From: Porphyromonas sp. oral taxon 275
GTDB lineage: Bacteria; Bacteroidota; Bacteroidia; Bacteroidales; Porphyromonadaceae
Assembly (NCBI RefSeq): GCF_018127745.1
Contig: NZ_CP072333.1
Span: 744,001 to 808,000, forward strand
Direction: 5' to 3'
Length of the DNA: 64,000 nucleotides
Positions 12,668 to 59,576 of the stretch are shown piece after piece. The notes under the pieces were generated by a model. It was not told the DNA's origin. It saw only the letters and a program-made list of their open reading frames with translations, and searched no databases. A program made the translations under genes and the position numbers. How positions within the stretch are numbered: the first letter of the stretch is position 1; every line of letters starts with the position of its first letter.

Positions 12668-12751
12668 CTGACTGATATCCCTCAAGCAGCTGACTGATAC
12701 CCATCAGCGTGCTGACTGGCGTCCCTCAGGGAGCTGACTGATATCCCTCAG
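12668..12751. repeat. 84-bp four-unit palindromic element (copy A)
   Basis: Four 18-bp units start at 12668, 12690, 12712 and 12734. Unit 4 is CTGACTGATATCCCTCAG; units 2 and 3 have diverged cores (GATACC, GGCGTC). The spacers are gcag, cgtg and ggag. A possible partial fifth unit (CTGAGG) is in phase at 12756. The fabI -7 box is about 200 bp downstream. Confidence 0.92.
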
Positions 12752-12948
12752 CGGCCTGAGGAGTAGGCGGGTGCTTCTTGGGGCCTTGGGCACATGGCTT
12801 TAGCCTGCCTTTCTCTTTGTCCTTAGCCTAGGGAGTTCCTGTACTGGAGGCCGAGAGGGAGGAGCTCCCTCCCTTGGTTTAGGCTACTCGGCCAGGTAAT
12901 AGCGGAGTGCATCCGAAGCCTTGTCCTAGCGGGCTTGCACATTTTTTG

Positions 12949-12956
12949 TATCTTTG
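12949..12956 (+). promoter_or_regulatory. -7 box for fabI
   Basis: TATCTTTG 46 bp upstream of the fabI ATG. It lies just before the longer in-frame start at 12954, which overlaps the box and is therefore unlikely to be used. Confidence 0.6.
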
Positions 12957-13001
12957 TGCTATAGTCATTACGATCATTCAATAACAAAATACAAGCTACT
13001 T

Positions 13002-13835
13002 ATGAGCTACAATCTGCTAGCAGGTAAGAAGGGGATCATCTTCGGTGCCCTCAACGAACAGTCCATTGCATGGCGCGTCGCAGAGCGTGCCGTAGAGGAG
13101 GGTGCTGAGATCATCCTGACCAATACCGCTGTAGCCGTCCGCATGGGACAGCTCAACGAACTGGGTGAGAAGCTCGGCGCTAAGGTCGTCCCCGCAGACG
13201 CTACCAAGGAGGAAGAACTCGAGGTCGTCTTCCAGGAGGCGATCAAGTCCTTCGGCAAGGTCGACTTCGTCCTGCACTCCATCGGCATGAGCCCCAATGT
13301 ACGTAAGGGCCGCTCCTACGATGACCTCGACTACAAGATGCTCCAGACGACCTTCGACATCTCGGCCGTCTCCTTCCACAAGATGCTCCAGGTGGCGAAG
13401 AAGCTGGACGCCATCGCCGAGGGGGGCTCGGTCGTCGCACTGACCTACGTAGCGGCACAGCGTACCTTCGTAGGCTATGGCGATATGGCCGATGCCAAGA
13501 GCCTGCTCGAGTCCATCGCTCGTAGCTTCGGCTACATCTATGGCCGTGAGAAGGGCGTGCGTATCAATACCGTCTCTCAGTCGCCTACGGTCACGACTGC
13601 AGGTAGTGGGGTCAAGGGCATGAGCGACCTCCTGGACTTCGCTCAGGACCTCTCGCCCCTGGGCAATGCCGACGCCAACGACTGCGCTGACTACTGCATC
13701 ACGCTCTTCAGCGACCTGACGCGCAAGGTCACGATGCAGAACCTCTTCAACGACGGGGGCTTCAGCTCCATGGGGATGAGCCTCGATGCCATCGAGGTCT
13801 TCGCTGAGGGTCGTGCCGCTCGTCAGGCTAAGTAA
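13002..13835 (+). CDS. fabI: Enoyl-[acyl-carrier-protein] reductase (NADH)
   Basis: 277 residues from the ATG at 13002 (MSYNLLAGKK). FabI catalyses the last reduction of each fatty-acid elongation cycle. It is an atypical short-chain dehydrogenase: GIIFGALNEQSIAW (11-24) is the FabI-type nucleotide motif, LHSIGMSP follows, and the catalytic Y159 and K166 are spaced Y-x6-K (YGDMADAK). NTVSQSPTVTTAG near 189-201 matches the substrate loop. It is the usual target of triclosan-type inhibitors. It has its own promoter and a terminator; copy A of the 84-bp repeat is upstream. Confidence 0.97.
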   Translation: MSYNLLAGKKGIIFGALNEQSIAWRVAERAVEEGAEIILTNTAVAVRMGQLNELGEKLGAKVVPADATKEEELEVVFQEAIKSFGKVDFVLHSIGMSPNVRKGRSYDDLDYKMLQTTFDISAVSFHKMLQVAKKLDAIAEGGSVVALTYVAAQRTFVGYGDMADAKSLLESIARSFGYIYGREKGVRINTVSQSPTVTTAGSGVKGMSDLLDFAQDLSPLGNADANDCADYCITLFSDLTRKVTMQNLFNDGGFSSMGMSLDAIEVFAEGRAARQAK

Positions 13836-13850
13836 ATAGGCTACACGCTT

Positions 13851-13891
13851 AGCGCCTCCGCCGGTCTCACGCGTAGACTGACGGAGGCGCT
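13851..13891 (+). terminator. Terminator after fabI
   Basis: Ten-bp perfect stem (13851-13860 with 13882-13891) of sequence AGCGCCTCCG, followed by a short T-rich stretch, 15 bp after the fabI stop and before lptB. Confidence 0.65.
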
Positions 13892-13913
13892 TTGCCTTAT
13901 CCATGCTCGCTAT

Positions 13914-14660
13914 ATGATACTACGTACAGAGAACCTCGTCAAGCGCTACCGCACACGTACCGTGGTCAATCACGTGTCCATCCAAGTAGGGCAAGGGGAG
14001 ATCGTCGGGCTCCTCGGTCCCAATGGGGCGGGTAAGACGACGACCTTCTACATGACCGTGGGGCTCGTCGTGCCCAACGAGGGGCGCATCTTCCTCGACG
14101 ATGAGGACATCACGAAGTATCCCGTCTATCAGCGTGCCCGCGCAGGCATCGGCTACCTAGCGCAGGAGGCCTCGGTCTACCGCCGTATGTCGGTGGAGGA
14201 CAATATCCTCTCGGTACTGGAGTTCACCGACCGCACGAAGGCCGAGCAGCAGGCGCGTCTGGAGGAGCTCATCGCGGAGTTTCGCCTAGAGAAGGTACGC
14301 ACTAACCAAGGTAACCGCCTCTCTGGGGGCGAGCGCCGCCGTGCTGAGATCGCGCGCTGCCTGGCCATTGACCCTAAGTTCATCATGCTGGACGAGCCCT
14401 TCGCTGGGGTAGACCCTATCGCGGTGCAGGACATCCAGAGCATCGTGGCGCAGCTCAAGCATAAGAACATCGGCATCCTCATCACCGACCACAACGTCTA
14501 CGAGACGCTGAGCATCACCGATAGGGCCTACCTCCTCTTCGAGGGTAAGGTGCTCTACGAGGGTACGGCCGAGCAGCTGGCGGAGAACGAAGTCGTCCGC
14601 GAGAAGTACCTCGGTAAGGACTTCCAGCTCCGTCGTCGTACCTTCGACGTCAAGCCCTAG
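13914..14660 (+). CDS. lptB: LPS export ABC transporter ATP-binding protein LptB
   Basis: 248 residues, one ABC domain. Walker A is GPNGAGKT at 35-42, the signature is [13 protein letters not shown], and Walker B with its glutamate is [23 protein letters not shown] supplies the switch histidine. The LptB-type Q-loop region [19 protein letters not shown] is diagnostic. LptB powers extraction of LPS from the inner membrane together with LptF and LptG, which are not in this window. The gene is flanked by the fabI terminator and, 100 bp downstream, by a strong inverted-repeat terminator at 14759. Confidence 0.96.
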
Positions 14661-14758
14661 CGCGGACACCCCGCCTCGGGGAGCCTTCCTCCCCCGCTCC
14701 TCCGAGCAGCACCGAGCCCTAGGTGCAAGTGCCTCCCGAGCACTCCTAAGGGCATAAG

Positions 14759-14820
14759 AAAAGTGGCTAATCTTTCTGCAGAAAGATTAGCCACTTTTTG
14801 TCAAAAGATTAGCCACTTTT
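14759..14820. repeat. Three-unit 22-bp repeat that also forms a bidirectional terminator
   Basis: The word AAAGATTAGCCACTTT occurs at 14782 and 14804, and its reverse complement AAAGTGGCTAATCTTT at 14760: three units at exact 22-bp steps. The first two form a 17-bp perfect stem with a CTGCAG loop, flanked by T runs on both strands, between the convergent lptB and transglutaminase genes. It is an obvious intrinsic terminator for both. The 18+4 spacing is the same as in the other repeat families of this window. Confidence 0.88.
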
Positions 14821-14867
14821 CGTCGAAGGCTAAGCGAGCGCGTGCGGCAAGCCTTCGGTGGGGGCGC

Positions 14868-17549
14868 TTAGTCCTTGGTGCAACCACCGCGCTCGCAGGC
14901 GGAGCTGGCCTGGGTCAGGCGCGTGAGCGTCTCCCTCAGCTGGCGTCCCAGGCCGATCGTATAGCCCTGCGAGACGAAGACCACGCGGTCGAAGGTGTCG
15001 GCCACGACGATGATGGGGTAGAGGCCTGCGCGTAGCTTGAAGCGCTCGGTCAGCTGCTTGGCCAGACCCTCCGTATCGAGGCCGAAGAAGGTCTGCTGCG
15101 GTAGACCTGCGCGGTCCTCGGGACGGTAGCCTGCCGCTGCGGTGCTGTCGGGGAATAGGAGGGCGATGGGACGGCCGAGCTGCTCCAGCGCGGGGGCCTC
15201 GCCGATGAGATCGCGGAGGGCGTGCTTGGTCGGCTCGCTGCCCGCATCCATGAGGCAGAGGACGTAGTAGCCGCGACCCGTGCTGCTCAGCAGGCTTCGC
15301 TCCTCACCCGCGGGGCTTAGCTTCTTATCCTCGCCAAGGCTGAGGGGACGGTAGCGGCTCTCGGAGCTGAAGTTGCCCAGCACAGCGATGGCGGTGCTGT
15401 CGCGGCGCATCACGAGGCTGTCGCTATGCTCCTGTCCTGCCTTGATGTCGAGGCTACGCAGCTGGGCCAGTACGCTGCCGTCCGCTAGGCGCGAGCCCGA
15501 GACGAGGAGGTACTGCCCCGCGTCGAGCTTGGTGCCGCGCTTGAAGGTAGGACGCCAGGCGCTGCCTTGCTCCAGTCCGTTGGCATCCTCGTCGTAGCTC
15601 AGTAGGTGCAGACGCCCCGAGCGGTCGAAGCGGCTCAAGGTGAAGTGGTAGTAGTACTTTGGGTTGTCTAGGATGCCGTTGTCCTGGTAGGCCAGGCGAA
15701 GTGTCCCCTGCGGGCTGACCGAGCTAGCTGCGGCAGCCTCCTCGAGGGCGAAGTCCTGCCACTGACCCTCGTGGTAGTACTGCGCCTTCCCCGTGACGGG
15801 CTCGAGGCGCGCCGCCCAGCCGCAGCTGCGCAGGAGCGAGAGGCAGAGCAGCGTCCGCGAATGGCTGTCAGCGCGGCGACTACGCCATACCTGCAGCGGC
15901 TCGGTGGGGTAGCCGAGCGGGTTGAAGTCCTTGTCCAGCGCGATCTCCTTGCGACACCAAGCGACGATCGCCTCGGGGCTGCGGTCGAACTGCTGCCTGA
16001 GCTCGCTCGGGAGCGCCTGCCGTAGCGCCGCCTTGTAGGGCGTCAGCGCCTCGTGAGCAAAGCGTGGGTTGTAGACATAGCGCATGCAGAGGGCGCTGTC
16101 AGCCGCGATGCTGGGCTGGGGCTGGCTATGCTGGAGGTGGTCACGCAGCACGGCTAAGGGCACGTCACGCAGGTCCTTGGCCGAGAGCACGTAGAGCAGG
16201 GCGCGGGCCTTAGCCTTGTCTGTTGACTCCTCGACGAACTGCCTCAGGACGCCCACATTGGCTCGGGCATCGAGGCCGAAGACCTGCTCGGCGCGTAGGC
16301 TGTCCAGGTAGCGGGTGCGTAGGCTGTCCTCCCAGGCGAAGCGCTGAGTATTGCGCTGGCGTGCCTCGGCGCTGACCTCGGGATAGCGTGCCGCCTCGCT
16401 CGGAGGCGTCAGCTTGAGGTCGAGCTGTAGCCGTTCGCCTGCCTGATGATCGAGCACGAGGCGCACGGCCTTATCCTGACCGAAGCGTATCTGCTTCAGC
16501 CCATAGACATAGCTCGAGCCCTTAGGCTGGCTGGCGTAGGCGATGAGGTCGCCCTGACCCGAGGTGAAGCGCGTGCGTCCCTGGGCGTCACAGCGCTGGC
16601 GCGCCACGGTGTAGAGCTCGCCGTAGTTGTACAGCTTGAACTCCACCTCGGCGTGCGGTACAGGTCGGCCCTTCGTATCCCGTACCTCCACGAGGCAGGT
16701 CGCCGCATGGGCGTAGCCCTCGATGACGTTGATCTCGGTGTAGGTCGGCGTGCGGCTGATGACGGGCTCGGGCCCATCGTAGTGCCCGAAGGCCTTGGTA
16801 TGGACGAGTATCGCGCGGGACACGGGGGCATTGAACCACGCTAGGTCCAGCACGGGCTCAGGCTCGCAAGCGCCGAGGAAGTGCCAGCGGCCATCGACCC
16901 AAGCCTCGACCCAAGCATGGTTGTCATCCGTATGCGCCCAGCGTGGCGTATAGACCTGGCGGGCAGGGATGCCTATGGTGCGCAGGGCGGCCACCAAGAG
17001 CGTCGATTCCTCTCCACAGCGTCCCGTCGCCGAGGCAAGGGTACAGAGCGGCGAGGAGGTGCGCGCGTCGCTGGGGTTGTAGGTCACGTGCTCGTGGCAC
17101 CAGTGGTTGACCTCAAGGATGGCCTCACGGAGGCTGAGCCTGCGCACACGATCTCGTAGCTCGGTGTAGCGAGCGGTGCGGAAGTCGTCGAGCGCCTCAT
17201 TATTGACGCGCAGGGGCAGGACGAAGTGCCGCCACTCGCGCTCGGGGATCGCCTTGCCCCAAGGCAGCTCCTGGCGTGCCCGCAAGGTCGTGCGGACGTT
17301 GGCCAGATAGTACTCCCCGCTGCGGTTCAGTAGGTCACTGGAGGGCATATAGGCGTAGAGGAACTCTAGGGCGGAGCGCTCAGCGGGCTGGAGTTGCTGC
17401 TGGAAGATATCGAAGAAGCCGCCTCGGGGGAAGCTGCGCTGCTTCAGGGCGAAGTCCTGCTGCAGCTGCGTCGTGCGCGCCTTCGGCGTCTGGGCACCTA
17501 GTGTGAGCGGCAGGCTGAGGAGCCCGAGGCTAAGGAGAAGAGCTTTCAT
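14868..17549 (-). CDS. Large secreted transglutaminase-fold protein
   Basis: 893 residues from the ATG at 17549 (MKALLLSLGLLSLPLTLGAQ), which gives a signal peptide; the longer frame to 17699 would overlap cutC and is rejected. A transglutaminase-like core lies at about 140-235: GRCGEESTLLVAALRTIGIPARQVY carries the catalytic C178 and DDNHAWVEAWVDGRWHFLG the H211; the third residue is less obvious (E229 region, CEPEP). A beta-sandwich-like segment follows (TCLVEVRDTKGRPVPHAEVEF, about 300-370), then a long region of unknown fold and a thioredoxin-like-looking end. Such proteins are common in Bacteroidales and probably act as peptidases or binding proteins in the periplasm. It is the last gene of the fucosidase-cutC run. 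Confidence 0.75.
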   Translation of the reverse strand: MKALLLSLGLLSLPLTLGAQTPKARTTQLQQDFALKQRSFPRGGFFDIFQQQLQPAERSALEFLYAYMPSSDLLNRSGEYYLANVRTTLRARQELPWGKAIPEREWRHFVLPLRVNNEALDDFRTARYTELRDRVRRLSLREAILEVNHWCHEHVTYNPSDARTSSPLCTLASATGRCGEESTLLVAALRTIGIPARQVYTPRWAHTDDNHAWVEAWVDGRWHFLGACEPEPVLDLAWFNAPVSRAILVHTKAFGHYDGPEPVISRTPTYTEINVIEGYAHAATCLVEVRDTKGRPVPHAEVEFKLYNYGELYTVARQRCDAQGRTRFTSGQGDLIAYASQPKGSSYVYGLKQIRFGQDKAVRLVLDHQAGERLQLDLKLTPPSEAARYPEVSAEARQRNTQRFAWEDSLRTRYLDSLRAEQVFGLDARANVGVLRQFVEESTDKAKARALLYVLSAKDLRDVPLAVLRDHLQHSQPQPSIAADSALCMRYVYNPRFAHEALTPYKAALRQALPSELRQQFDRSPEAIVAWCRKEIALDKDFNPLGYPTEPLQVWRSRRADSHSRTLLCLSLLRSCGWAARLEPVTGKAQYYHEGQWQDFALEEAAAASSVSPQGTLRLAYQDNGILDNPKYYYHFTLSRFDRSGRLHLLSYDEDANGLEQGSAWRPTFKRGTKLDAGQYLLVSGSRLADGSVLAQLRSLDIKAGQEHSDSLVMRRDSTAIAVLGNFSSESRYRPLSLGEDKKLSPAGEERSLLSSTGRGYYVLCLMDAGSEPTKHALRDLIGEAPALEQLGRPIALLFPDSTAAAGYRPEDRAGLPQQTFFGLDTEGLAKQLTERFKLRAGLYPIIVVADTFDRVVFVSQGYTIGLGRQLRETLTRLTQASSACERGGCTKD

Positions 17550-17571
17550 AGTGTAGGGATGAGGGATGATC

Positions 17572-18321: not shown

Positions 18322-19652
18322 CAGCGTAGCTCTACCTGGACGATGTAGTCGACGGCGTTGGCCGTGGAGGGTGCCTGGTCGAAGCTCAGGGTCAACCCGT
18401 CCCTGGACTGCTGGTAGCGTATGGGGCGCTGCGTGTCGTAGCTGAGGACGCGCTTGACGGGCGTGGTGAGGGGGAGCGAGAGCAGGCGGCTACTCCAGTC
18501 GAGGATGTGCAGGTAGAGGGTCTTGCCTCGCTGCGTCGTCACGCCCCACTCTTGCGGGGGGAGCAGCCCAGCGCGCACGCCTCGGACGGTCGCTCCGTAG
18601 CGCTGCATCCAGGCTCCGATCTTACTCAGGCGGTCGAGGGCAAGTGCAGGCAGGGCACCCGAGGGCTCGGGGCCGATGTTCAGCAGGAGGTTGGCGTCAC
18701 GGCCTGCAGTGGATACGAGCAGGCGGATGAGCGTCGTGTCGCTCTTGTAGTTCTGGTCGGCGATCTTGTAGCCCCACATCCCGTTCATCGTCTGGCAGGT
18801 CTCCAGGGGGAGCTTGCTGATGGCTTGGCCCGAGAGCCCTGCGGTATTGGCTCCAGGGACATCGCGCTCGAACATCTGGAAGTCCTCCCCTGCGTGCGGC
18901 GTGCCGTGGTGGTTGTTCCCGATGAGGCAGCTTGGCTTGAGCTGATGGATGAGACTGTATAGAGCGGGGAAGCCCCAATCGAAGCTGGGGTTCTGATCAT
19001 GGTCCCACTCGCCGTCCAGCCAGATCGCGTCGGCATCGTAGTCACGGACGAGCTCGGTGAGCTGTGCCTTCATGAAGGCATCGTAGCTCGACCACTGGCC
19101 GTGCTTGGTGCGTCCCGTACCTCGACCCGTGCGGCCGAGGGGGTAGTAGTCCTCACGGCTCCAATCGAGTAGGGAGTAGTAGATATGGAAGCCCAGTCCA
19201 TGGCGGCGGCAGGCATCGTGCAGCTCGCGTAGTACATCGCGGCGGAAGGGCGTGGCGCGTACCATATTATAGTCACTCTGCTTCGTGTCCCAGAGGGAGA
19301 AGCTGTCGTGATGACGTGAGGTGATGGTCAGGTAGCCTGCACCCGAGGCCTTGATCGCCTTTACCCAAGCATCGGCGTCGAAGCGGCTGGGGTAGAAGCC
19401 CGCTGCTGCCTTGGCATACTCGGCGTGATTGATATTCGCAACGGTCATGTACCACTCGCCCTGCGCAAAGGTGCTGTAGAGCCCCCAGTGGAGGAAGATG
19501 CCGAAGCCGTGGTCACGGAAGGCTTTGCGTGCCTCTAGATTACTTTGGCTGGGCTGGTAGTTGCTTTGGGCATGGCCGAGGAAAGAGACGCCGAGCGCTG
19601 CTGCCAGGAGTAGGCTGCGTGCCTTGCGGCCTCGAGGTGTAGACTTACTCAT
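18321..19652 (-). CDS. Secreted alpha-L-fucosidase (GH29)
   Basis: 443 residues with a signal peptide (about 1-29, RSLLLAAALGVSFLGHAQS). GH29 hallmarks: FGIFLHWGLYS with HWG at 55-57, the paired histidines H114-H115 in TSRHHDSF, and the nucleophile D213 in DAIWLDGEWD. It removes alpha-linked L-fucose from host or bacterial glycans; the short single-domain form suggests a periplasmic exo-enzyme. A C-terminal small beta domain follows the barrel. It heads a minus-strand run with cutC and the transglutaminase-like gene, with a TACCTTTG box upstream. No T9SS C-terminal domain was recognised. Confidence 0.92.
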   Translation of the reverse strand: MSKSTPRGRKARSLLLAAALGVSFLGHAQSNYQPSQSNLEARKAFRDHGFGIFLHWGLYSTFAQGEWYMTVANINHAEYAKAAAGFYPSRFDADAWVKAIKASGAGYLTITSRHHDSFSLWDTKQSDYNMVRATPFRRDVLRELHDACRRHGLGFHIYYSLLDWSREDYYPLGRTGRGTGRTKHGQWSSYDAFMKAQLTELVRDYDADAIWLDGEWDHDQNPSFDWGFPALYSLIHQLKPSCLIGNNHHGTPHAGEDFQMFERDVPGANTAGLSGQAISKLPLETCQTMNGMWGYKIADQNYKSDTTLIRLLVSTAGRDANLLLNIGPEPSGALPALALDRLSKIGAWMQRYGATVRGVRAGLLPPQEWGVTTQRGKTLYLHILDWSSRLLSLPLTTPVKRVLSYDTQRPIRYQQSRDGLTLSFDQAPSTANAVDYIVQVELR

Positions 19653-19678
19653 GATGTACTAAGATGTTTGATGGTATC

Positions 19679-19686
19679 CAAAGGTA
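19679..19686 (-). promoter_or_regulatory. -7 box for the fucosidase operon
   Basis: Minus-strand TACCTTTG about 27 bp upstream of the fucosidase ATG. Confidence 0.55.
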
Positions 19687-19836
19687 CTTAATCTTGGCGA
19701 GAGCTCGCCTAAGCTCCAGTACCGACGCGTCAGCAGACTAAGTGCCATATGCCTAGCTTGTCGCTGGGCGCTCACGTATGGTCGTATAGCGTGGCGCTCA
19801 CTTAATCCTCAGAGAGCAGTTGTCAGATGGAGCTAA

Positions 19837-20112
19837 GCCCCTATAGGGGCAATCCCTCTAGAGCCCAGGGTGCGTAGCCCTGTAAGGGCGACCAAACCCT
19901 GGGTAGCCTTCATCAATAAGGATAGAGCCCTACAGGGGCGACCCACAAAGTGGTCGTAGCGTTGTAGCTGTACGGCTCTGATCTCGCTTTGCTCCGTTTG
20001 GATGGTCGCCCCTGTAGGGCTCTCCATGTATGGGGCTCTTTCTCCCAGGGTTCCGTCAGGCTTACAGCCTTCCCTCACCCTGGGCTTTGGACGGGTCGCC
20101 CCGCAGGGGCTT
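19837..20112. repeat. Cluster of REP-like inverted repeats
   Basis: The region contains the 14-bp palindrome GCCCCTATAGGGGC (19837-19850), AGCCCTGTAAGGGCGACC near 19876, AGCCCTACAGGGGCGACC near 19926, its reverse complement near 20004, and a GGGTCGCCCC version near 20094. Two cassettes are bounded by CCCAGGGT/ACCCTGGG (19864-19903 and 20044-20084). The look is that of Bacteroidota REP-type elements; no RAYT transposase is nearby. It lies between the fucosidase promoter and rho. Confidence 0.75.
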
Positions 20113-20177
20113 GCGCAGCCGCTGGTAGCCTATGGGCATGCGGGACTACAGCCAGCTGAGTTCCTTGTCCGAGCGCT

Positions 20178-20261
20178 CTGGGGGATAGCCCTCATAGAGC
20201 TGACTGATACCCCTTAGCCTCCTGACTGGCGGCACTTAGCCTCCTGACTGATATCCCTCAG
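20178..20261. repeat. 84-bp four-unit palindromic element (copy B)
   Basis: Units start at 20178, 20200, 20222 and 20244, with spacers agag, cctc, cctc. Unit 4 is the exact CTGACTGATATCCCTCAG; units 1-3 have cores GATAGC, GATACC and GGCGGC. The element is flanked by GAGCGCT on the left and AGCGCTC on the right. A CTGA in phase at 20156 may be the relic of another unit. Confidence 0.9.
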
Positions 20262-20367
20262 AAGAGCGCTCCCTTATCCCCCGCATTGCTTAGCCTCCGA
20301 GCGGGGAAGACGCTCGGGGGGACTTAGCCTCCGTAGCACGAGGGCATGGAGGAGGCGGAGCAAAAGA

Positions 20368-20408
20368 AAGCAGGGCGGTATACGCTCGCTGCGTATACCG
20401 CCCTGCTT
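20368..20408 (-). terminator. Intrinsic terminator after rho
   Basis: Perfect 18-bp stem (20368-20385 with 20391-20408), 5-nt loop, and a T-rich tail in the minus direction, 26 bp after the rho stop. One of the strongest hairpins in the window. Confidence 0.88.
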
Positions 20409-20433
20409 GGTAGGGGGAAGAGGCTTCGGAGGC

Positions 20434-22332
20434 CTAGCTATTGGCTTCGGCGAAGAACTCCTCGTTGTTCTTGGTGCGGAGCATGAGCCCCTTGACACGC
20501 TCGAGGGCCTCGATGGGGTTCATCTCGGAGAGTACCTTGCGCACGCCCCACATGAGGGTGCCGGTCTTGTCGCCCAGCAGGAGGTCGTCGCGGCGCGTGC
20601 TGCTGGCCACCAGGTCGATGGCGGGGAAGATACGCTTGTTCGCCAGGCGACGGTCGAGCTGCAGCTCCATGTTACCCGTCCCCTTGAACTCCTCGAAGAT
20701 GACGTCATCCATCTTGGAGCCCGTCTCCTGCAGCGCTGTGGCGAGGATGGTGAGGCTACCGCCACCGCGGATGTTGCGCGCAGCACCGAAGAAGCGCTTA
20801 GGCTTCTGCAGCGCATTGGCATCGACCCCACCGGAGAGTACCTTACCCGAGGCAGGCTGTACCGTATTGTAGGCACGTGCCAGGCGGGTGATGGAGTCAA
20901 GGAGGATGACGACATCCTGACCACTCTCGACCATGCGCTTAGCCTTGTTGAGGACGATCTCGGCGATCTTGACGTGGCGCTCGGCAGGCTCGTCGAAGGT
21001 CGAGGCTATGACCTCAGCATTGACGCTCGTGGCCATATCGGTGACCTCCTCGGGACGCTCGTCGATGAGCAGGATGATCATGTAGACCTCGGGGTGATTG
21101 GCAGCGATGGCGTTGGCGATATTCTTCAGCAGCATCGTCTTACCCGTCTTGGGCTGCGCTACGATGAGGCCGCGCTGTCCCTTACCGATGGGGGCGAAGA
21201 GGTCGACGATACGCATAGCCGTCTTGTCCTGGACTGCGGGGCTATTGCCTGCGGCGAGGTTGAACTTCTCCTCGGGGAAGATCGGTGTCAGGTGGTCGAA
21301 GGGTACGCGGTCGCGCATCTCGGCGGGCGTACGGCCGTTGACACGGGTGATCTTGTCGAAGGGGAAGTACTTGTCCCCCTCCTGAGGAGGACGGATGAAG
21401 CCTTCGACGAGGTCACCAGGACGGAGGCTCCACTGCTTGACCTGGGCGGCCGAGAGGTATATATCGTCGGGTGAGGGCAGGTAGTTGTAGTCTGCCGAGC
21501 GTAGGAAGCCGTAGCCGTCGGGGAGAATCTCGAGGACGCCGCTGCACTCGAGGATACCCTCGAAGTTGAACTCGGGCTGCTGCACGGGCTGCGTGCGAGG
21601 CGCATTAGAGCGCTGTGCAGGGCCTGCGTTGTTGCTTGCCTTGGGCTCGGGACGCTGGGGCTTGGCGGGGGTGTTGAAGGCTGGGAGCACCTGGTCGAGT
21701 ACGGACTTGCTGTCCTTGTGGCGGAAGACCATCTGCGCGGGGCTAGGGCTGGCCGCTGCCTCGGTCTCGCTCGTGCTGGGCTCCTTAGGGCTCTCTGTCT
21801 GCTCGCTGGGCTCAGCGCTCGCGGCTACCGCACGCTGGCTGCGCTGGCCGCGGCTTCGGCTCTGGCTAGACTTAGGGGCTGGCTGCGCGCTGCTGGCTCC
21901 CTCGGGCTGAGGGGCTGCGACGCTCTCGGGAGTAGCTTCCTCCTCGGAGGCCTTAGCTACGGCCTCAAGGGCCTGGTTGCGCTCCTGCTCGGCACGGGCG
22001 GCGAGCTCAGCCTTGGTGGGGCGTCCGCGCTTGCGCTGCTTGGGTGCGCTCTCTTCTTCGGGGGATTGAGCTTCAACAGTAGGGGCTACGGCTGTGCTCT
22101 CGGCTTGTTCTTTGGGCATTGGATTCTTAGATTTGGTTCGGCTCTTGGGGCGCTCGGAGCTGCGCTTGACCGTCTGGGTCTCCGCGATGGAGGTAGCCTG
22201 CTGGTCGAGGATGCCGTAGATGAGCGCTTGCTTATCGGCGTAGTCCCCGAGCTTCATGCTCAGCTCTTCGGCGATGCTATTGAGCTCCTCTTGGCTTTTG
22301 GCCAGTAGCTCAGTGATGTTGTATCGTTGCAT
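20434..22332 (-). CDS. rho: Transcription termination factor Rho with a large N-terminal insert
   Basis: 632 residues against about 420 in E. coli. Residues 1-48 form the Rho N-terminal helical domain ([20 protein letters not shown]). Residues about 50-255 are a low-complexity Ala/Ser/Glu/Pro/Lys-rich insert containing an AT-hook-like [10 protein letters not shown] at 101-110. The cold-shock-like RNA-binding domain follows ([30 protein letters not shown], about 265-294), then the ATPase core with Walker A QPKTGKTM near 393-400 and [13 protein letters not shown]. Rho is a hexameric RNA helicase that ends transcription. Inserts at this place are known in Bacteroidota and Actinobacteria. A strong hairpin follows the gene. 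Confidence 0.97.
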
Positions 22333-22890: not shown

Positions 22891-22900
22891 ATCGCTGGCG

Positions 22901-23051: not shown

Positions 23052-23135
23052 GTGAGGGATATCGGTCAGCGTGCTGAGGAACGTCAGTCAGCCTCGTGAG
23101 GGATACCAGTCAGCCAGCTGAGGGGTATCAGTCCT
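23052..23135. repeat. 84-bp four-unit palindromic element (copy C)
   Basis: Units start at 23052, 23074, 23096 and 23118 with spacers cgtg, cctc and ccag. Unit 1 is GTGAGGGATATCGGTCAG; inner cores are AACGTC and GATACC; unit 4 has GGTATC. The ten bases before it (GGGAGGGCTC, 23042-23051) are the same as before copy G. It lies about 120 bp upstream of the tRNA-Leu promoter. The rest of the gap up to cydB shows nothing else. Confidence 0.9.
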
Positions 23136-28712: not shown

Positions 28713-28796
28713 TCTAGGGATATCCCTCAGCCCGCTGAGGGATATCAGTCACGGCGCTGAGGGGTGTCAGTCAGCCTCGTGATGGATATCAGTCAG
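28713..28796. repeat. 84-bp four-unit palindromic element (copy D)
   Basis: Units start at 28713, 28735, 28757 and 28779 with spacers cccg, ggcg, cctc. Cores are GATATC, GATATC, GGTGTC, GATATC. The left flank GGGAGCGTTC resembles that of copies C and G. It lies in the 500-bp divergent gap before uvrA, about 200 bp upstream of the uvrA -7 box; nothing else was recognised in the gap. Confidence 0.9.
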
Positions 28797-33444: not shown

Positions 33445-33528
33445 TTGAGGGATATCCTTCAGCCTCCTGAGGGACGCCCCTCACGCGGCTGACTGACGGC
33501 ACTCAGCTCCCTGACTGATATCCCTCAG
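33445..33528. repeat. 84-bp four-unit palindromic element (copy E)
   Basis: Units start at 33445, 33467, 33489 and 33511 with spacers cctc, gcgg, ctcc. Outer cores are GATATC; inner cores are GACGCC and GACGGC. Unit 4 is the exact CTGACTGATATCCCTCAG. It lies about 140 bp upstream of the -7 box of the pseudouridine synthase gene. Confidence 0.92.
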
Positions 33529-36704: not shown

Positions 36705-36788
36705 CCAAGGGATATCAGTCAGAGAGCTGAGTGCCGTCAGTCAGCCACGTGAGGGACGTCCGTCACGCGGCTGAGGGATATCCCTCGC
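36705..36788. repeat. 84-bp four-unit palindromic element (copy F)
   Basis: Units start at 36705, 36727, 36749 and 36771 with spacers agag, ccac, gcgg. Outer cores are GATATC, inner cores GCCGTC and GACGTC. It stands in the 580-bp gap between asnS and gcvH, about 215 bp upstream of the gcvH -7 box. Nothing else was recognised in the remaining gap. Confidence 0.92.
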
Positions 36789-46142: not shown

Positions 46143-46226
46143 GTGAAGGATATCAGTCAGGAGGCTGAGGGCCGTCAGTGGCGAGCGTGAGGGATAGGCA
46201 TTAGCAGCCTGAGGGATATCCCTCAT
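46143..46226. repeat. 84-bp four-unit palindromic element (copy G)
   Basis: Units start at 46143, 46165, 46187 and 46209, spacers gagg, gagc, cagc. Outer cores are GATATC; inner cores GCCGTC and GATAGG. Unit 4 is nearly the perfect palindrome CTGAGGGATATCCCTCAT. Flanked by GGCTC on the left and GAGCC on the right. Left flank GGGAGGGCTC is the same as in copy C. The next -7 box is 75 bp downstream. Nothing else was seen in the gap after mdh. Confidence 0.92.
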
Positions 46227-50438: not shown

Positions 50439-50471
50439 GAGACGCGCATAGCCTAAGCTAAGCACACAGGC

Positions 50472-50516: not shown

Positions 50517-50530
50517 TTACTTCGCTACGG

Positions 50531-50576
50531 CAGCCCCCAGCAAGGCCTATGAGCTTTGCTGGGGGCTGTTGTTTTA
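50531..50576 (+). terminator. Second terminator after the NlpE-like gene
   Basis: Perfect 13-bp stem (50531-50543 with 50556-50568) followed by TTGTTTTA, only 15 bp after the first terminator. Confidence 0.85.
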
Positions 50577-50623
50577 TTCGCTTGGAGCCTTTCGGCCGAG
50601 TTCGTGACCTTGCGACAGAGGGG

Positions 50624-50707
50624 GTAAGAGGTACCACTCAGGCTGGGGAAGGGTATCAGTCAGAGGGCCGAAGGATATCCCTCACGAGGCTGACTGATAG
50701 CCCTCAG
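50624..50707. repeat. 84-bp four-unit palindromic element (copy H)
   Basis: Units start at 50624, 50646, 50668 and 50690, spacers gctg, aggg, gagg. This is the most diverged copy: cores GGTACC, GGTATC, GATATC and GATAGC, but the phase is unbroken. It stands 113 bp upstream of the -7 box of the ricT-like gene. Confidence 0.82.
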
Positions 50708-50819
50708 CGCCGTGCGACTTATCGCTTAGCGCTCTGATGCCTAGGCTGAGGGCGTCTACCCCTTGAGTCTGCTCGTTTCTTCCCCATAAGGTAGGTCGTG
50801 GCTATAGCCTCAAATTCCG

Positions 50820-50827
50820 TATCTTTG
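50820..50827 (+). promoter_or_regulatory. -7 box for the ricT-gldH operon
   Basis: TATCTTTG about 179 bp before the ATG at 51006, implying a leader of about 170 nt. A ten-codon frame (MPYYSRILLM) starts at 50832, right at the predicted transcript start; no clear structure was recognised in the rest. Confidence 0.5.
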
Positions 50828-51005
50828 TACAATGCCGTATTACTCCCGCATCTTGCTGATGTAGGAGGCTCAGAGGTCGCTAAGTGCGGCGCTCTACGGC
50901 ACCTTCGGTAGGCGAGGGGCGTGTGGGGGATAGCTTCCTCAGCGCTTCGCCGAAATATCATATACGGTCTGTGTAGTGACGCAGACCCCCCTAGTAAGAT
51001 ACACT

Positions 51006-52292: not shown

Positions 52293-52312
52293 GCGACCAA
52301 GCTCGACACGCG

Positions 52313-52804: not shown

Positions 52805-52894
52805 TTTGAGTGTAGAGGATTGAGTGCCTCTACAGCTGGCAGAGGGCGCTGCGGTGTGCCTATCCCATCTCTCTGCTAGCATGGATATGAATGT

Positions 52895-55360
52895 ATGAGT
52901 AAGAAGAAAAAGAATACTGACGAAGTGGCAGGCGCTGAAGAGCAGCGCCCCTTCCTCGCGATACCTGTACTGGCTAACTATGAGGAGCAGGAGGGCTTCG
53001 CCCCCGAGGCGAGCGAGCTCCCAGAGGAGCTCCCCATCATCGCTCTGCGCAATATGGCGGTCTTCCCAGGCACGCTAGCGCCGATCCTGATCGGGCGCAA
53101 GAAGTCTATGCAGGTCATCCGCAAGGCTGAGCGCGAGCAGCTCCTCATCGGGGTGCTGGCACAGCGCGACGCACTTGTGGAGAACCCCAAGGAGGCTGAT
53201 CTCTACCCCCTAGGGACGCTCGTCGAGGTGACGCAGATCATAGAGCTTCCCTCGGGAGAGTTCTCTGCTATCCTGCGTGGACGCCAGCGCTTCGTCCTTG
53301 ACGAACTGAAGACGACGACCCCTTACCTCAAGGGAAGCTATCATACCCTCCCCGATACAGCTCGGGAGCTGGAGGCGAGTCAGGACTTCGACGTACTGGT
53401 CGGTATGCTCCACGAGCGCCTCATCACGCTGCTGGAGCGCCTTACCCCTGGCGCGCCCAAGGGCTTCATGGATACGATCCGAGGCATACGCAATCGCGCT
53501 TACCTCGTGAACCTCGCCTCCTCAGTCGTGGACGTGCCGATTGAGGTACGTCAGGAGCTGCTCAATGCCGAGGACCTGGGTGCGCGGGCGATGCTTGTCC
53601 TGCCGCTCATCCAGCGTCAGATCAGGGAGGCCGAGCTGCGTGACGAGATCCTGGCCAAGACCAAGCTGGAGATGGATCAGCAGCAGCGTGAGTACTTCCT
53701 CCAGCAACAGATGCGTGCCATCCAGAGCGAGCTCGGGCACGAGGACTCTGCCGAGGACGAGATCGAGGAGCTACGCGCCAAGGGAAAGAAGAAGAAATGG
53801 AGCAAGGCAGTCGCGGAGACTTTCGCCAAGGAGCTACGCAAGGCCAAGCAGCTCAACCCACAGAGCCCCGACTACTCCGTCCAGATGCAGTACCTGCGCA
53901 CGATCGTAGATCTGCCCTGGGGCATCTATAGCAAGGATCACTTCGACCTCAAGAAGGCAGCCGAGCTCCTCGACCGCGAGCACTATGGTCTGGAGCGCGT
54001 CAAGGAACGTATCCTAGAGCATCTAGCGGTACTGAAGCTCAAGGGGGATATGAAGTCCCCCATCATCTGCCTCTACGGCCCTCCAGGGGTAGGGAAGACC
54101 TCGCTGGGGCGTAGCATCGCCGAGAGCCTCGGGCGTAAGTACGTCCGCATCTCCCTCGGGGGTGTCCATGATGAGGCCGAGATACGAGGCCACCGCCGTA
54201 CCTACATCGGTGCTATGAGTGGGCGTATCATCCAGAGCCTGCAGAAGGCAGGGACCTCCAATCCCGTCTTCGTCCTCGACGAGATCGACAAGCTCTCCAG
54301 CGACTACAAGGGTGATCCCGCATCGGCACTCCTAGAGGTCCTGGATCCGGAGCAGAATACGACCTTCCACGACAACTATCTAGATATAGACTACGACCTC
54401 TCGAAGGTGCTCTTCATCGCTACGGCCAACGATGTCTCCAGCATCCCTCAGGCACTCCGTGACCGTATGGAGCTCATCGAGGTCTCGGGCTACATCGCTG
54501 AGGAGAAGCTGCAGATCGCTCAGCAGCACCTCCTGCCCCGTGAGGCTAAGTCTCATGGTCTGGCGGAGCGCATCCCTCCCTTCAGCCGCGAGGCACTGGA
54601 GCTGATCATCGAGGAGTACACCCGCGAGAGTGGGGTGCGTGGTCTCACGAAGCGTATCGCCGCTGTGCTACGTAAGCTCGCCTGGGCGCTAGCCTCAGAG
54701 GAGGGCCTCCCCGAGGAGGTGACGCCCGAGCTGGTGCGTCAGTACCTTGGCAAGACCGTATATTCGCGCGACAAGTATCAGGGCAATGAGCTCCCAGGCG
54801 TGGTCGTTGGCCTTGCTTGGACGAGTGTCGGAGGGGAGATCCTCTTCATCGAGAGCAGTCTACAGGCGGGGCAGAATGGCCGTCTGATCCTTACGGGGAG
54901 CCTCGGTGATGTCATGAAGGAGTCTGCGACGATCGCCCTCAGCTACGTCCGTGCCCACGCCGAGGAGCTGGGCATAGACCTCGAGCAGCTCAAGGACAAG
55001 GAGCTCCACATCCATGTACCCGAGGGCGCCATCCCCAAGGATGGCCCCAGCGCAGGGATCACGATGGTGACCTCTATTGTCTCGGCACTCACACGCCGCA
55101 AGGTGCGCCCACGTCTAGCGATGACGGGCGAGATCACCCTGCGCGGCAAGGTGCTGCCCGTCGGTGGCATCAAGGAGAAGATCCTCGCTGCTAAGCGATC
55201 GGGTATTCAGGACATCATCCTCTGCCGCGAGAATGAGCGTGACATCGAGGAGATCAACGAGCGCTACCTAGAGGGCCTTAGCTTCCACTACGTGGACGAG
55301 ATAGGTCAAGTGCTTGACTATGCTCTCCTTGAGGAGCGCGCAGACGAAGTAAATAAGTAA
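52895..55360 (+). CDS. lon: ATP-dependent protease La
   Basis: 821 residues. The Lon N-terminal substrate domain is at about 45-240 ([23 protein letters not shown]). The AAA+ module has Walker [10 protein letters not shown], Walker [12 protein letters not shown] and sensor [25 protein letters not shown]. The protease domain has the catalytic serine in [11 protein letters not shown] and lysine in [14 protein letters not shown]. Lon degrades misfolded and regulatory proteins in the cytoplasm. It heads a tight run DUF1599, DoxX, tpiA, SPOR, folE, with only 10 bp to the next gene. Confidence 0.97.
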
Positions 55361-55370
55361 CTTTGCAGCG

Positions 55371-55922
55371 ATGAACCCTAGCCAACTAAACACGGAGGAG
55401 GCCTGTCGGCAGATCTTGCAGATCTGTCGCAGGCTCTTTGTGCAGAAGCTCCACGACTACGGAGCCTCGTGGCGTATCCTTCGTCCAGAGTCCCTCACAG
55501 ATCAGATCTACATCAAGGCAGAGCGCATCCGTAGCCTGCAGACCAAGGGCTATGCCCAGGTCAATGAAGGGATAGATGTCGAGCTCATCGCGATCGTGAA
55601 CTATGGCCTCATCGGGATGATACAGCTCCAGCTCGGGGCTGTATCCTCTCCCGATATCTCGCCTGAGGTAGCCCTAGAGCTCTATGATCGCTTCGCTGAG
55701 GATACGCTGCAGCTGATGCTAGCCAAGAACCATGACTATGGCGAGGCCTGGCGTAATATGCGCATCTCCTCCATGGTCGATATGATCCTCTCCAAGGTCT
55801 ACCGCACTAAGCAGATAGAGGACCTCAAGGGGCAGACACTTGTCTCCGAAGGCATCGACGCCAACTACAAGGACATGGTCAACTACGCGCTCTTCTGCCT
55901 CATCAAGATTGCCGAAGCCTAA
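55371..55922 (+). CDS. DUF1599 protein with an internal duplication
   Basis: 183 residues, cytoplasmic and helical. The two halves repeat: HDYGASWRILRPESL (28-42) matches HDYGEAWRNMRISSM (121-135); NEGIDVELIAIVNYGL (65-80) matches SEGIDANYKDMVNYAL (159-174). This is the DUF1599 family, which I believe is associated with nucleotide-related functions, but no reaction is established from the sequence. It lies between lon and the DoxX gene with gaps of 10 and 3 bp, the usual Bacteroidales order. Confidence 0.88.
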   Translation: MNPSQLNTEEACRQILQICRRLFVQKLHDYGASWRILRPESLTDQIYIKAERIRSLQTKGYAQVNEGIDVELIAIVNYGLIGMIQLQLGAVSSPDISPEVALELYDRFAEDTLQLMLAKNHDYGEAWRNMRISSMVDMILSKVYRTKQIEDLKGQTLVSEGIDANYKDMVNYALFCLIKIAEA

Positions 55923-55925
55923 GCC

Positions 55926-57254
55926 GTGATACATCTACGCCATACGATCGCTGAATGTGCCCGCCTCATCGTAGGGCTGACCTTCGTAGCCTCTGGGCTG
56001 CTGAAGGCAGTGGATCCTGTGGGCACGGCGCTCAAGATCACGGAGTACCTGGCGCCTGTCTTTGCCTTCACTGGGCATGGCTATAGTCTCGCGCTGGGGC
56101 TATCCTTCGTCCTATGCGCAGGGGAGTTCATCCTTGGCGCCTTCCTCCTGGCTGGCTCCTACCGCCGTGTCTGTGCCCGCTTCGCCTTCGTCTTCATGAT
56201 CTTGATGACCTTGGTGACGGGCTACATCCTCATCGCGGATCCCGTCAGTGACTGCGGCTGCTTCGGGGACGCACTGCACTTGACCAACCTTCAGACCTTC
56301 CTGAAGAACCTCGTCCTCCTGCCGCTGAGCTACCTCGTCCTACGGGACGCCTCAGCGCTAAGGCACCTTTTCAGCCTTCGGGAGCGCTGGGTCCCGACCC
56401 TCCTCGCGCTTGGGGGAATCATCTTCTTCCTCGTCGAGAACTACCGTCACCTGCCGCTCTTCGACTTTAGGCCCTATACGGTGGGGCTCAAGCTCGATGA
56501 GGCCATCATCGCCGAGGAGGAGCAGTTCCAGCGTGCGGCACTGCAGAGCACGAGCTATATCTACGAGAAGGCAGGGGAGCAGCGCAGCTTCTCTCCCGAG
56601 GCCTTGCCTGATAGCAGCTGGGCCTTCGTCCGAGTGCAGGATAGCCTGGCGCTGGAGGCCTTCAAGCCCAAGTACGACTTCGCTCCCGTCGATAGCCTAG
56701 GTTATCCTATGGCTGAGGATCTACTGAGCGATTCCAGCGTCACGCTCCTACTGCTGGCGCCTAGCTGGGATGCGGCGAATCAGAGTGTCATCGACGAGGT
56801 GGGTGAGCTCGCTACGCAGGCGGCTGCCTTGTGCTACCGCTTCTACGGCCTCACGGCTTCGGGGGCAGAGGAGATCGCCCGCTGGCGCTACCAGACGGGT
56901 GCGACCTACCCGATGCTGCAGATGGACCCCACGCCCATACGTACGATGATACGTGCCTATCCAGGCCTCCTTGTACTGCGCGGTGGTCAGATCATTGACA
57001 AGCGGGCCTACTCTGACTTCCCCAAGGTGGAGGAGGTCACCACCTACCTCAAGGAGCTCGGCGATCCCAAGCGTCCGCTCCCCACACCCAGCTACGTCCG
57101 CACCTATCCGCTCCTCCTCTGGGCACTTCTCCTGGTGCTGGCCTTCCTACGCTTCTGGGCCAGGAAGCTCCACCTTACCCTCTACCTCAAGAGACGTATA
57201 CATTATTCACATATAAAGGAAATAGACAATGAGAAAGAACATCGTCGCCGGTAA
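55926..57254 (+). CDS. DoxX-like membrane protein of the BT_3928 family
   Basis: 442 residues from a GTG at 55926. The N-terminal ~145 residues are a DoxX-like four-helix unit ([88 protein letters not shown]). A fifth membrane segment ([18 protein letters not shown]) leads to a soluble region of about 200 residues, probably periplasmic, and a last membrane helix ([18 protein letters not shown]). The DCGCFGD motif is that of DoxX/MauE-type redox-linked proteins. Its end overlaps tpiA by 26 bp. Function unknown. Confidence 0.85.
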
Positions 57255-57990
57255 CTGGAAGATGAACAAGACCCTTCAGGAGGGTACGGCCTTCATCGCT
57301 GAGCTCAAGCAGACGCTGGCAGGCAAGAGCCTGGGCTGTGACGTCGTCATCGGCGCTCCCTTCATCCACCTGGCTACCATCGCTGAGCAGGCTAAGGGCA
57401 GCGCAATCGGCATCGCTGCTGAGAACTGCGCTGACAAGGCTGAAGGCGCTTACACAGGTGAGGTATCGGCTGCTATGGTAGCCTCGACGGGCGCTCGCTA
57501 CGTCATCCTCGGCCACTCGGAGCGTCGTGCCTACTACGGTGAGAACGATGCTATCCTGAGCGAGAAGCTCGCCCTGGCGCTAGCCAATGGCCTGACTCCC
57601 ATCTTCTGCATCGGGGAGGTCAAGGAAGAGCGTGAGGCTGGCAAGCACTTTGAGGTCGTAGCACAGCAGCTCGAGGGCACGGTCTTCGGGCTTTCTGCCG
57701 AAGACTTCTCCAAGGTCGTCCTGGCCTACGAGCCTGTATGGGCCATCGGTACGGGTCTGACCGCTAGCTCGGCTCAGGCACAGGAGGTACACGCCCACGT
57801 GCGTCAGCTCATCGCTAGCAAGTATAGCGCTCAGATCGCTGAGGACTGCACGATCCTCTACGGCGGTAGCTGCAACGCTAGCAACGCCAAGGAACTCTTC
57901 GGCCAGCCCGACATCGACGGCGGTCTGATCGGTGGTGCTTCGCTCTCGGTAGAGAAGTTCCTCCCCATCATTGAGGCCTTCAACAAGTAG
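57229..57990 (+). CDS. tpiA: Triosephosphate isomerase
   Basis: 253 residues. All catalytic blocks are present: GNWKMNKT (Lys), [11 protein letters not shown] (His) and [11 protein letters not shown] (Glu), plus the phosphate-gripping YGGSCNASN and GGLIGGASL. It interconverts dihydroxyacetone phosphate and glyceraldehyde 3-phosphate. The start overlaps the end of the DoxX gene, so translation is probably coupled. Confidence 0.98.
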
Positions 57991-58076
57991 ACCTTATCTT
58001 CCCGACCACTTCCTCCGCTGACGGCGCCTAGCCTCAGTTGGGGAAGTGGCTTCATTCATTTAGCTGCACGCGATTC

Positions 58077-58604
58077 ATGCTAAGACGATATCGACTGACC
58101 CTCGGCTTGCTCCTCTGCGCCCTTGTGTCGGGTAGCCTCGCCGCTCAGACGCTGCCCGAGAAGAGCCGCCCGCGCAATATCTTTGAGGCCCTCGAGGAGC
58201 CTTCCTCGGGCGAAGGGCTCATCACCATCATCCAGTCGTCCGAGCTGCGCACACTCGTCGGCTCTGTCGCTGGTGGGCGTACTGCGACGCTGGGACGTGA
58301 TGGTAACTATACCCTGCTCATGGGCTATCGCATCCAGGTCTTCAATAGCAACCTGCCCAATGCCAAGGCTGAGGCTTATAGTCGTGCTGAGCAGCTGAAG
58401 CGCTTAGCCCCCTCGATGAGCAGCTACATCACCTATAAGGCTCCCTTCTGGAAGCTCACGATCGGCAACTTCCTTACCCGAGAGGAGGCCAGCCAGACCC
58501 GCACGAGCCTCGTCCGCACCCTGCCTAGCTGGATGCGCGAGTCCTACGTGGTGCGCGATAAGGTGCGTATCCTTAACTACACAGATCCCAATGTCAGCCA
58601 ATAA
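58077..58604 (+). CDS. SPOR domain periplasmic protein
   Basis: 175 residues from the ATG at 58077 ([24 protein letters not shown]), which yields a signal peptide; a TTG start at 58038 is rejected. The C-terminal half ([31 protein letters not shown] ... [27 protein letters not shown]) is a SPOR domain, which binds glycan strands of septal peptidoglycan. It overlaps folE by 14 bp in the conserved tpiA-SPOR-folE order. Confidence 0.88.
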
Positions 58605-59190
58605 GTATATCCCCACCATGAGCGATCAAGAGCGTGATGAGGCGCTGCGTCATCACTACACGCAGATCCTCCAGTTGCTGGGCGAGGATCCCGAGCGAGA
58701 AGGTCTCGTCAAGACCCCCGAACGGGTGAGCAAGGCGATGCGCTTCCTGACGCAGGGTATGGCGCAGTCCCCTGAAGAGATCCTTCGCTCGGCGATGTTC
58801 AAGGAGGACTATCGCCAGATGGTCATCGTCAAGGACATTGACTTCTATTCCCTCTGTGAGCACCACATGCTCCCCTTCTTTGGTAAGGTGCATATCGGCT
58901 ATATTCCGAATGGCTACATCACGGGGCTGAGCAAGCTGCCACGTGTCGTGGACGTCTTCGCTCGCCGCCTGCAGGTGCAGGAGCGCCTCACGATGCAGAT
59001 CAAGGACTGCATCCAGTCGGCGCTCAATCCCCTTGGGGTCATCGTCGTCATCGAGGCGCAGCACATGTGCATGCAGATGCGTGGGGTGGAGAAGCAGAAC
59101 TCTTACACCACGACCAGCGACTTTACGGGGGCCTTCCGCGAGGCCAAGACGCGCGAGGAGTTCATGCAGCTCATCACGCACGGCAAGTAG
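58591..59190 (+). CDS. folE: GTP cyclohydrolase I
   Basis: 199 residues. The zinc ligands C89 and H92 in [20 protein letters not shown] and C160 in [11 protein letters not shown] are present, as is [23 protein letters not shown]. It opens GTP to dihydroneopterin triphosphate, the first step of folate synthesis. A start at 58618 ([10 protein letters not shown]) is also possible; the earlier ATG overlaps the SPOR gene. A very strong terminator follows. Confidence 0.96.
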
Positions 59191-59212
59191 CCTCCTTCGC
59201 TTAGCTGAATAG

Positions 59213-59259
59213 TAAAGCGCGAGGTCAGCAGCCACTCAGGCTGCTGACCTCGCGCTTTA
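59213..59259 (+). terminator. Terminator ending the lon-folE operon
   Basis: 19-bp perfect stem (59213-59231 with 59241-59259) with a 9-nt loop and T-rich end, 23 bp after the folE stop. Confidence 0.92.
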
Positions 59260-59492
59260 TTCATGTCTTGCTCTCTCCTTGGTCTTAATGTTCGTCTGAT
59301 ATAGCTTGTCGTCCATACGAAAGCCTAGTAGGCGACCTTAACTATCTGCATTAAGTAGAGCTGCAAGGGAGGGTAGAGCCAGTTCCTTAGCCTACCAAAG
59401 GCCAACCCGCATACTGCTTGCGTGGTCTCGTCGAGACCGTATCCGTAGAGGGGGGAGGCAATGACGTGAGGGGATAGCCTAAGCGGAGCTCC

Positions 59493-59576
59493 GTGAGGGA
59501 TATCCCTCAGCCTCGTGACTGCTACCCCTGAGCTTCGTGACTGACGTCTCTCAGCGGGCTGACTGATATCCCTCGG
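59493..59576. repeat. 84-bp four-unit palindromic element (copy I)
   Basis: Units start at 59493, 59515, 59537 and 59559, spacers cctc, cttc, cggg. Unit 1 is the near-perfect GTGAGGGATATCCCTCAG; inner cores GCTACC and GACGTC; unit 4 GATATC. It is the only copy in a convergent gap, 12 bp from the stop of the LolE-like gene. The rest of the 400-bp gap shows a small palindrome GGTCTCGTCGAGACC near 59423 and no gene. Confidence 0.92.

Follow-up and report, generated by a model that had tools for sequence, protein, structure and literature searches.

Intergenic arrays of palindromic units in Porphyromonas sp. oral taxon 275 as candidate binding sites of an HU-HIG protein

The stretch of DNA analysed here (the window) is 64 kb long, corresponds to positions 744001–808000 of the single 2,180,921-bp contig of Porphyromonas sp. 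oral taxon 275 (G000), and contains nine copies of an intergenic element referred to below as the CTGA array. As the initial annotation had stated, each copy consists of four 18-bp near-palindromes at a pitch of 22 bp, 84 bp in total, and all nine were found between genes at the positions given there:

12668..12751, plus strand: four-unit array, 84 bp, in a divergent gap upstream of a FabI-like gene at 13002
20178..20261, plus strand: four-unit array, 84 bp, adjoining rho (20434–22332, minus strand)
23052..23135, minus strand: four-unit array, 84 bp, between tRNA genes and a cydB-like gene
28713..28796, minus strand: four-unit array, 84 bp, in a divergent gap upstream of uvrA
33445..33528, plus strand: four-unit array, 84 bp, in a tandem gap ahead of a pseudouridine synthase gene
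36705..36788, minus strand: four-unit array, 84 bp, in a tandem gap behind asnS
46143..46226, minus strand: four-unit array, 84 bp, second unit degenerate (6 of 14 mismatches)
50624..50707, plus strand: four-unit array, 84 bp, in a tandem gap ahead of a ricT-like gene, with a weak fifth unit at 50712–50729 (5 of 14 mismatches)
59493..59576, plus strand: four-unit array, 84 bp, in a convergent gap

Searching the window with the unit pattern CTGANNGATATCNNTCAG and up to three mismatches returned 32 matches against 3.1 expected, a number reached by none of 100 shuffles. The only Rfam matches at gathering score in the window were three tRNAs, and no plasmid matches were obtained for the one element searched (window 12600–12820). 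Beside the array at 20178, the same gap (19652 to 20434) also holds nested inverted repeats with arms of 20–27 nt (19846–20102).

Copy number was estimated from a sample made up of the window and forty 20-kb stretches (864 kb, ~40% of the genome), to which the counts for this genome refer unless stated otherwise. The 93 elements in the sample extrapolate to 235 per genome (bootstrap 199–271; 229 without the window), in line with the hundreds that had been anticipated. Four units were present in 73 of the 93 elements, two units in one and five to ten units in 19; some of the longer elements are taken, as a group rather than one by one, to be two fused elements or to include a weak extra unit. 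In chains of at least three units, 253 of 268 steps measured 22 bp, with 14 of 23 bp and one of 20 bp. Unit number was thus nearly fixed and spacing rarely departed from 22 bp, and the earlier statement that every copy has exactly four units without indels holds for the window and for the larger part of the sample, though not all of it. The reversed sequence of the sample gave 18 single units and no chains. Across the whole genome, the unit pattern with at most one mismatch had 299 matches (reversed control 0), compared with 0–3 in each of 25 other genomes of the genus and 0–6 in each of 35 additional genomes from the family and order (control 0–2). The CTGA array family is therefore restricted to the present species among the genomes searched.

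The anatomy of the element was derived from 77 well-scoring copies, each oriented by its own consensus (39 on one strand and 38 on the other). Information content reaches 1–2 bits at most unit positions and is low in the spacers. In unit 1 both half-sites are most commonly GG (37 of 77), units 2–4 most commonly combine a CT left with a GG-type right half-site (34, 25 and 33 of 77, respectively), and the centre of unit 3 is most often GACGTC (29 of 77) in place of GATATC. The element is polar. The units had been described as palindromes assembled from two half-site types; near-palindromic they are, but single units can be degenerate, as in the copy at 46143, the array has a direction, and the CT half-site occupies both sides of one unit only once in 308. 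Weak words were seen in the flanks (CTT....AGCTC on the left and CCTCCCCCTTA on the right), which are not inverted repeats of each other, and no terminal inverted repeats appeared in a flank profile of the 77 copies showing 45 bp on each side.

Mean pairwise identity between copies is 0.746 in the units and 0.367 in the spacers, where column composition gives 0.375; the units are conserved and the 4-bp spacers, noted earlier as variable, are saturated. Nearly identical copies were not found in the sample, the best pair being two neighbours (at 115.8 and 118.7 kb) with 62% identity over 60 spacer and flank positions. Homogenisation from unit to unit within an array was rejected, units inside an array being about as alike as those of different arrays. 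The share of Watson–Crick pairs between the two arms of a unit is 0.687, against 0.681 under independence, and 33 of 300 permutations were as high; in the different units of Porphyromonas catoniae (see below), positions 4 and 14 are Watson–Crick pairs in 26 of 52 units, C–C or G–G in 24 and otherwise in 2. Because the arms do not covary and the half-sites vary independently, the units are best read as double-stranded sites for a symmetric protein dimer and not as hairpins.

Placement was examined against 649 genes called in the sample with a simple purpose-made caller. No copy among the 93 extends more than 30 bp into a called gene. Copies are absent from all 437 gaps shorter than 200 bp and present in 86 of the 145 gaps of at least 250 bp; tandem, convergent and divergent gaps are occupied alike (p = 0.40). 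Copies lie at a median of 257 bp from a gene start and 187 bp from a gene end, and in tandem gaps the element runs along transcription in 26 cases and against it in 17, no significant preference (p = 0.22). Two or more copies share a gap in 4 cases versus 17.6–19.3 expected (for gaps of 200–2500 bp, each array with at least seven units being taken as two copies). By eye the density is even along the chromosome, apart from two 20-kb stretches with no copies, and shows no trend towards origin or terminus in the sample, GC skew per stretch having given no clear origin, so that the origin was not located. One of the two empty stretches, 545001–565000, has 44% GC and contains an HU-HIG gene (see below), and is likely a foreign island.

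Congeners contain arrays of like plan built from other palindromes. In G004, RACCNNTANNGGTY forms 48 arrays of at least three units in 580 kb (reversed control 2), none of them in called genes and 24 of them with five units; the spacing 22, 22, 23, 22, on either strand, is common to five of the eight five-unit arrays listed. In G014 the palindrome is CGACCYACNGTRGGTCG, with 7 of 9 arrays made of four units and a pitch of mostly 23 bp; in P. catoniae (G021, L039) it is CGASTTAYNRTAASTCG, and 9 of 10 arrays have five units 23 bp apart. Second array families are also present in G014 and G021. A thinner survey of 12 more congeners found intergenic arrays at 21–23 bp that were judged convincing in eight (G022, G025, G020, G017, G012, G010, G005 and G007), none convincing in G003 and G023, and no arrays in G009 and G001. 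In G020, G017 and G012 (e.g. L160, L163 and L164), composite intergenic blocks were seen in which CCACGTGG palindromes at ~22 bp surround TTCCTCCGAAG repeats at 21 bp. Several G004 arrays (C1 ~776400, 799700, 883900 and 5100) have in common a conserved flank of ~60 bp in which words of the ACGTACGT type occur, which suggests a longer mobile element at these sites.

The presence of arrays at orthologous gaps of at least 200 bp, tested twice, is uncorrelated between the present genome and G004, G014 or P. catoniae (upstream 11 of 26 versus 7 of 21, p = 0.56; downstream 7 of 15 versus 5 of 13, p = 0.72). Gene order differs between the species, leaving too few syntenic large gaps for comparison. 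Array positions are not conserved, so the arrays may have been mobile in the past; the lack of gene-specific conservation also favours a general role over a gene-specific one.

Several genes for HU-HIG proteins (PF18291) directly adjoin arrays of private sequence, defined here as 21–24 bp arrays upstream that do not belong to the main family. Searches for HU-HIG, which also return ordinary HU, gave 8 matches in G000, 9 in G004, 10 in G014, 17 in G021, 17 in G025 and 3 in G020. Of these 64, 49 were examined first, and 45 were kept after three ordinary HU-like genes and one N-masked gene had been dropped. A private array lies upstream of 28 of the 45, whereas among 480 other genes that come first in their operon 36 have one (odds ratio 20, p = 1.5e-17). 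Five more loci, with arrays at G021:C9 and G004:C2 and none at G025:1131314, G020:341907 and G014:C24, bring the count to 30 of 50 (p = 6.8e-18), with 54 of the 64 matches examined in all. These p-values are optimistic, since some HU-HIG rows are near-identical gene copies; the search covered the last 450 bp before each HU-HIG gene and, for the controls, the intergenic sequence to a maximum of 700 bp, and all control genes came from genomes other than G020. With the amplified families counted in, the figures are 33 of 45 and 159 of 491, respectively. Not every private repeat is a good palindrome. Outside the genus, five HU-HIG loci on the minus strand scored 33, 28, 28, 25 and 20 and one on the plus strand 21, against a threshold of 29, and the link there is only suggestive.

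One such pairing could be followed across species. Units of AAACGTATACGTTT are present in 5 of 26 genus genomes (3 in G000, 7 in G004, 7 in G014, 20 in G013 and 7 in G023), and close orthologues (at least 79%) of the G000 HU-HIG protein encoded beside the AAACGTATACGTTT array are likewise found in 5 of 26 (G000, G004, G013, G023 and G021). Motif and orthologue coincide in four genomes (p = 0.0016), where 125, 148, 126 and 126 bp separate the gene match from the nearest exact unit. The exceptions are G014, with the motif and no orthologue, and G021, with an orthologue and no motif. In a comparable case, the orthologues G004:510651 and G021:176223 have similar arrays around CTATATAGCTTT.

The present genome has six HU-HIG genes, and private arrays accompany five of them (280906, 1212432 and three near-identical copies). 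Because C1:1804254–1804772 is the sole one without, it would by elimination be the best candidate binder of the CTGA arrays. Its protein scores 54.1 bits with PF18291 (cut-off 26.2) and 56 with the NCBIfam model HU_rel, below that model's own cut-off of 68.6. Its closest neighbours in a tree are G004:136015 and G014:27560 (support 92/83), but by identity it is about equally near other paralogues (46–53%). A structure was predicted for P0001, a homologue with 97% identity; a deeper alignment raised the mean pLDDT to 75.6 from the 57.4 of a first, weak model. The top structural matches of its core (residues 41–127) are chains of HU/IHF type, including a putative DNA-binding protein of Bacteroides (4fmr), although the scores are modest, at best a Z of 5.5 with an rmsd of 5.9 over 61 aligned residues; no HU entry turned up when solved structures were searched by sequence. 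The model also shows an additional pair of strands at the N terminus and a tail predicted with low confidence.

The genus already has a described 22–23 bp repeat, the BrickBuilt element of Porphyromonas gingivalis. Its 23-nt minisatellite lies in a miniature inverted-repeat transposable element (MITE), with 19 copies, a unit number of 1 to 22.8, and a leader and tail with IS5-like terminal repeats, according to the relevant passages of PMC4596501, where 22-, 23- and 41-nt tandem repeats of P. gingivalis are also cited as known, with no link to palindromes or a protein, and where a table lists the 84-nt BrickBuilt_14 next to a DNA-binding protein gene. The CTGA arrays likewise are intergenic, with tandem units of about the same length, but they mostly have four units, have no terminal repeats that could be seen, number ~235 and differ in sequence; with at most one mismatch, 18 bases of the 23-nt BrickBuilt unit AGAYCATARTATCCTCTCRTRTG have no match in the present genome. 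They match 105 and 113 times on the two strands of G025 and 18 and 11 times on those of G010, with one stray match in G002. BrickBuilt arrays lie upstream of an HU-HIG-type gene in G025 (C1 961378–961562, gene at 961562) and of G010:C21:12043 (region C21 11763–12351), the latter HU-HIG-type by a weak match to another HU-HIG protein. BrickBuilt_14 is probably the same locus. The position of the repeats ahead of these genes suggests that BrickBuilt captured an HU-HIG array.

Taken together, these data make it reasonably probable that the CTGA arrays are the cognate sites of HU-HIG proteins, one set of which has been scaled up genome-wide. Each 84-bp element would be a nucleoprotein assembly site with four symmetric double-stranded sites, one for each of four protein dimers; the 22-bp pitch would allow the dimers to bind next to one another, in a constant and polar order, in the space between transcription units. 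An HU-HIG histone-like protein, a diversified relative of HU and IHF, would be the most likely binder. Paralogues in the genus tend to have a private array of like plan ahead of their own gene, probably for self-regulation, some of them with dispersed copies as well, and in this genome one set would have reached ~235 loci, where the bound array may act as an insulator, a nucleoid anchor or organiser, or a regulator. The array family, its pattern of conservation and the link of arrays of like plan to HU-HIG genes are observed directly; the binding, the choice of paralogue and the role are inferred. A protein-binding array was one of the options in the initial annotation, and it gains support as the leading idea from the conserved units with saturated spacers, the independent half-sites and the HU-HIG link of arrays of like plan.

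A broader proposal is put forward tentatively. HU-HIG proteins and their arrays may be orthogonal, diversifying protein–site pairs, in which each paralogue reads its own half-site through three to five dimers and regulates itself through one array. In each Porphyromonas species one pair may have spread to tens or hundreds of loci, with roughly one array in every gap between operons, to form a chromosome-organising or insulating layer peculiar to that species; the BrickBuilt minisatellite would then be a captured HU-HIG array. The histone-like proteins of the HU superfamily are usually regarded as weakly specific. If the proposal is true, those of this genus became sequence-specific array binders with rapidly changing codes, the 22–23 bp repeats of Porphyromonas, BrickBuilt included, would be explained, and a ready-made set of orthogonal DNA-binding pairs would be at hand, together with a natural experiment on how a global DNA-binding protein and its sites, in their hundreds, change jointly from one species to another. 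A motif is predicted for each paralogue, which makes the idea directly testable.

Within the HU/IHF family, IHF-binding repetitive elements are known from enterobacteria (RIP). Dispersed repeats bound by a relative of HU and IHF would thus have a precedent, and the candidate binder has a PF18291 match and a predicted core with modest similarity to HU; unlike those, the present arrays consist of three to five palindromes at a pitch of two turns, with a different sequence for each paralogue. Literature searches found no description of such arrays for HU or IHF and, at the level of search results, nothing published on palindrome arrays with a fixed number of four units or on a link to HU-HIG. Iteron arrays and parS-like sites are also tandem sites at ~22 bp, bound by an initiator or partition protein, whereas the CTGA arrays have hundreds of chromosomal copies between operons and, in the sample, no visible trend towards origin or terminus.

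It is considered rather unlikely that the arrays bind a transcription factor, or a protein that organises the chromosome, with no relation to HU-HIG. The signature of a dimer on double-stranded DNA names no protein, and with ~40% of the genome read a self-regulated factor of another kind could lie elsewhere; the association of private arrays with HU-HIG genes and the conserved pairing of array and gene in four species argue against it. Also unlikely, and a little harder to uphold, is a mobile repeat of the MITE type, comparable to BrickBuilt, which would have spread within each species and otherwise be neutral. It would account for the species-specific families and the turnover of positions between species, it could draw on the irregular spacing of the five G004 arrays and the flank common to several, and BrickBuilt, a MITE with IS5-like ends in the passages of PMC4596501 that describe it, is its precedent. 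Yet the units are conserved while spacers and flanks are saturated, the unit number is nearly fixed, and double occupancies are fewer than random placement gives. The plain form of a non-autonomous mobile unit, another early suggestion, is so far not supported, given the lack of terminal inverted repeats and of nearly identical copies.

Repetitive extragenic palindromes (REP) and their composites (BIME), with REP-associated transposases (RAYT), also form hundreds of species-specific intergenic palindromes. That the CTGA arrays act in RNA, as hairpins that terminate transcription or stabilise mRNA or as hairpins of REP type spread by a RAYT, is nonetheless highly improbable, even though every unit is near-palindromic and one RAYT-type gene (Y1_Tnp) is present in this genome. 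The hairpin or terminator reading was rejected on the missing arm covariation, which largely refutes it, on the divergent gaps, occupied as often as others, and on the lack of a significant orientation preference in tandem gaps; the pitch is moreover rigid at 22 bp, unlike that of REP and BIME elements. Against mobilisation by a RAYT, G004, G014 and G021 bear arrays, of other sequences, and have no Y1_Tnp match. Least credible is a species-specific signal for DNA uptake or self-recognition, which would suit the species-specific sequence and high copy number, because known uptake signals are single short words that also occur inside genes and the arrays are polar four-site blocks limited to intergenic gaps.

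Two further array families are present in the window:

3131..3240, no strand assigned: second array family, of like plan, five AAAAGTAATATAACTTTT-like units at 22 bp; the motif also lies upstream of the HU-HIG gene at 280906
14759..14820, no strand assigned: third array family, of like plan, three AAAAGATTAGCCACTTTT-like units at 22 bp; the motif also lies upstream of three near-identical HU-HIG genes (562677, 1225201 and 2091038)

The second family (AAGTWATATWACTT, 22 bp) fills 10 of the 46 gaps of at least 300 bp that lack a CTGA array, and 7 of these 10 are divergent. Its exact units number 19 in G000, 12 in G004 and 2 in G014, with none in the other genomes among the 26 of the genus. The third family (AAAGATTAGCCACTTT, 22 bp) occupies nine loci in the genome, that in the window and C1 48184, 541188, 562493, 586784, 1225017, 1234397, 2090854 and 2096869, three of which lie ahead of the near-identical HU-HIG genes, one of them in the low-GC stretch.

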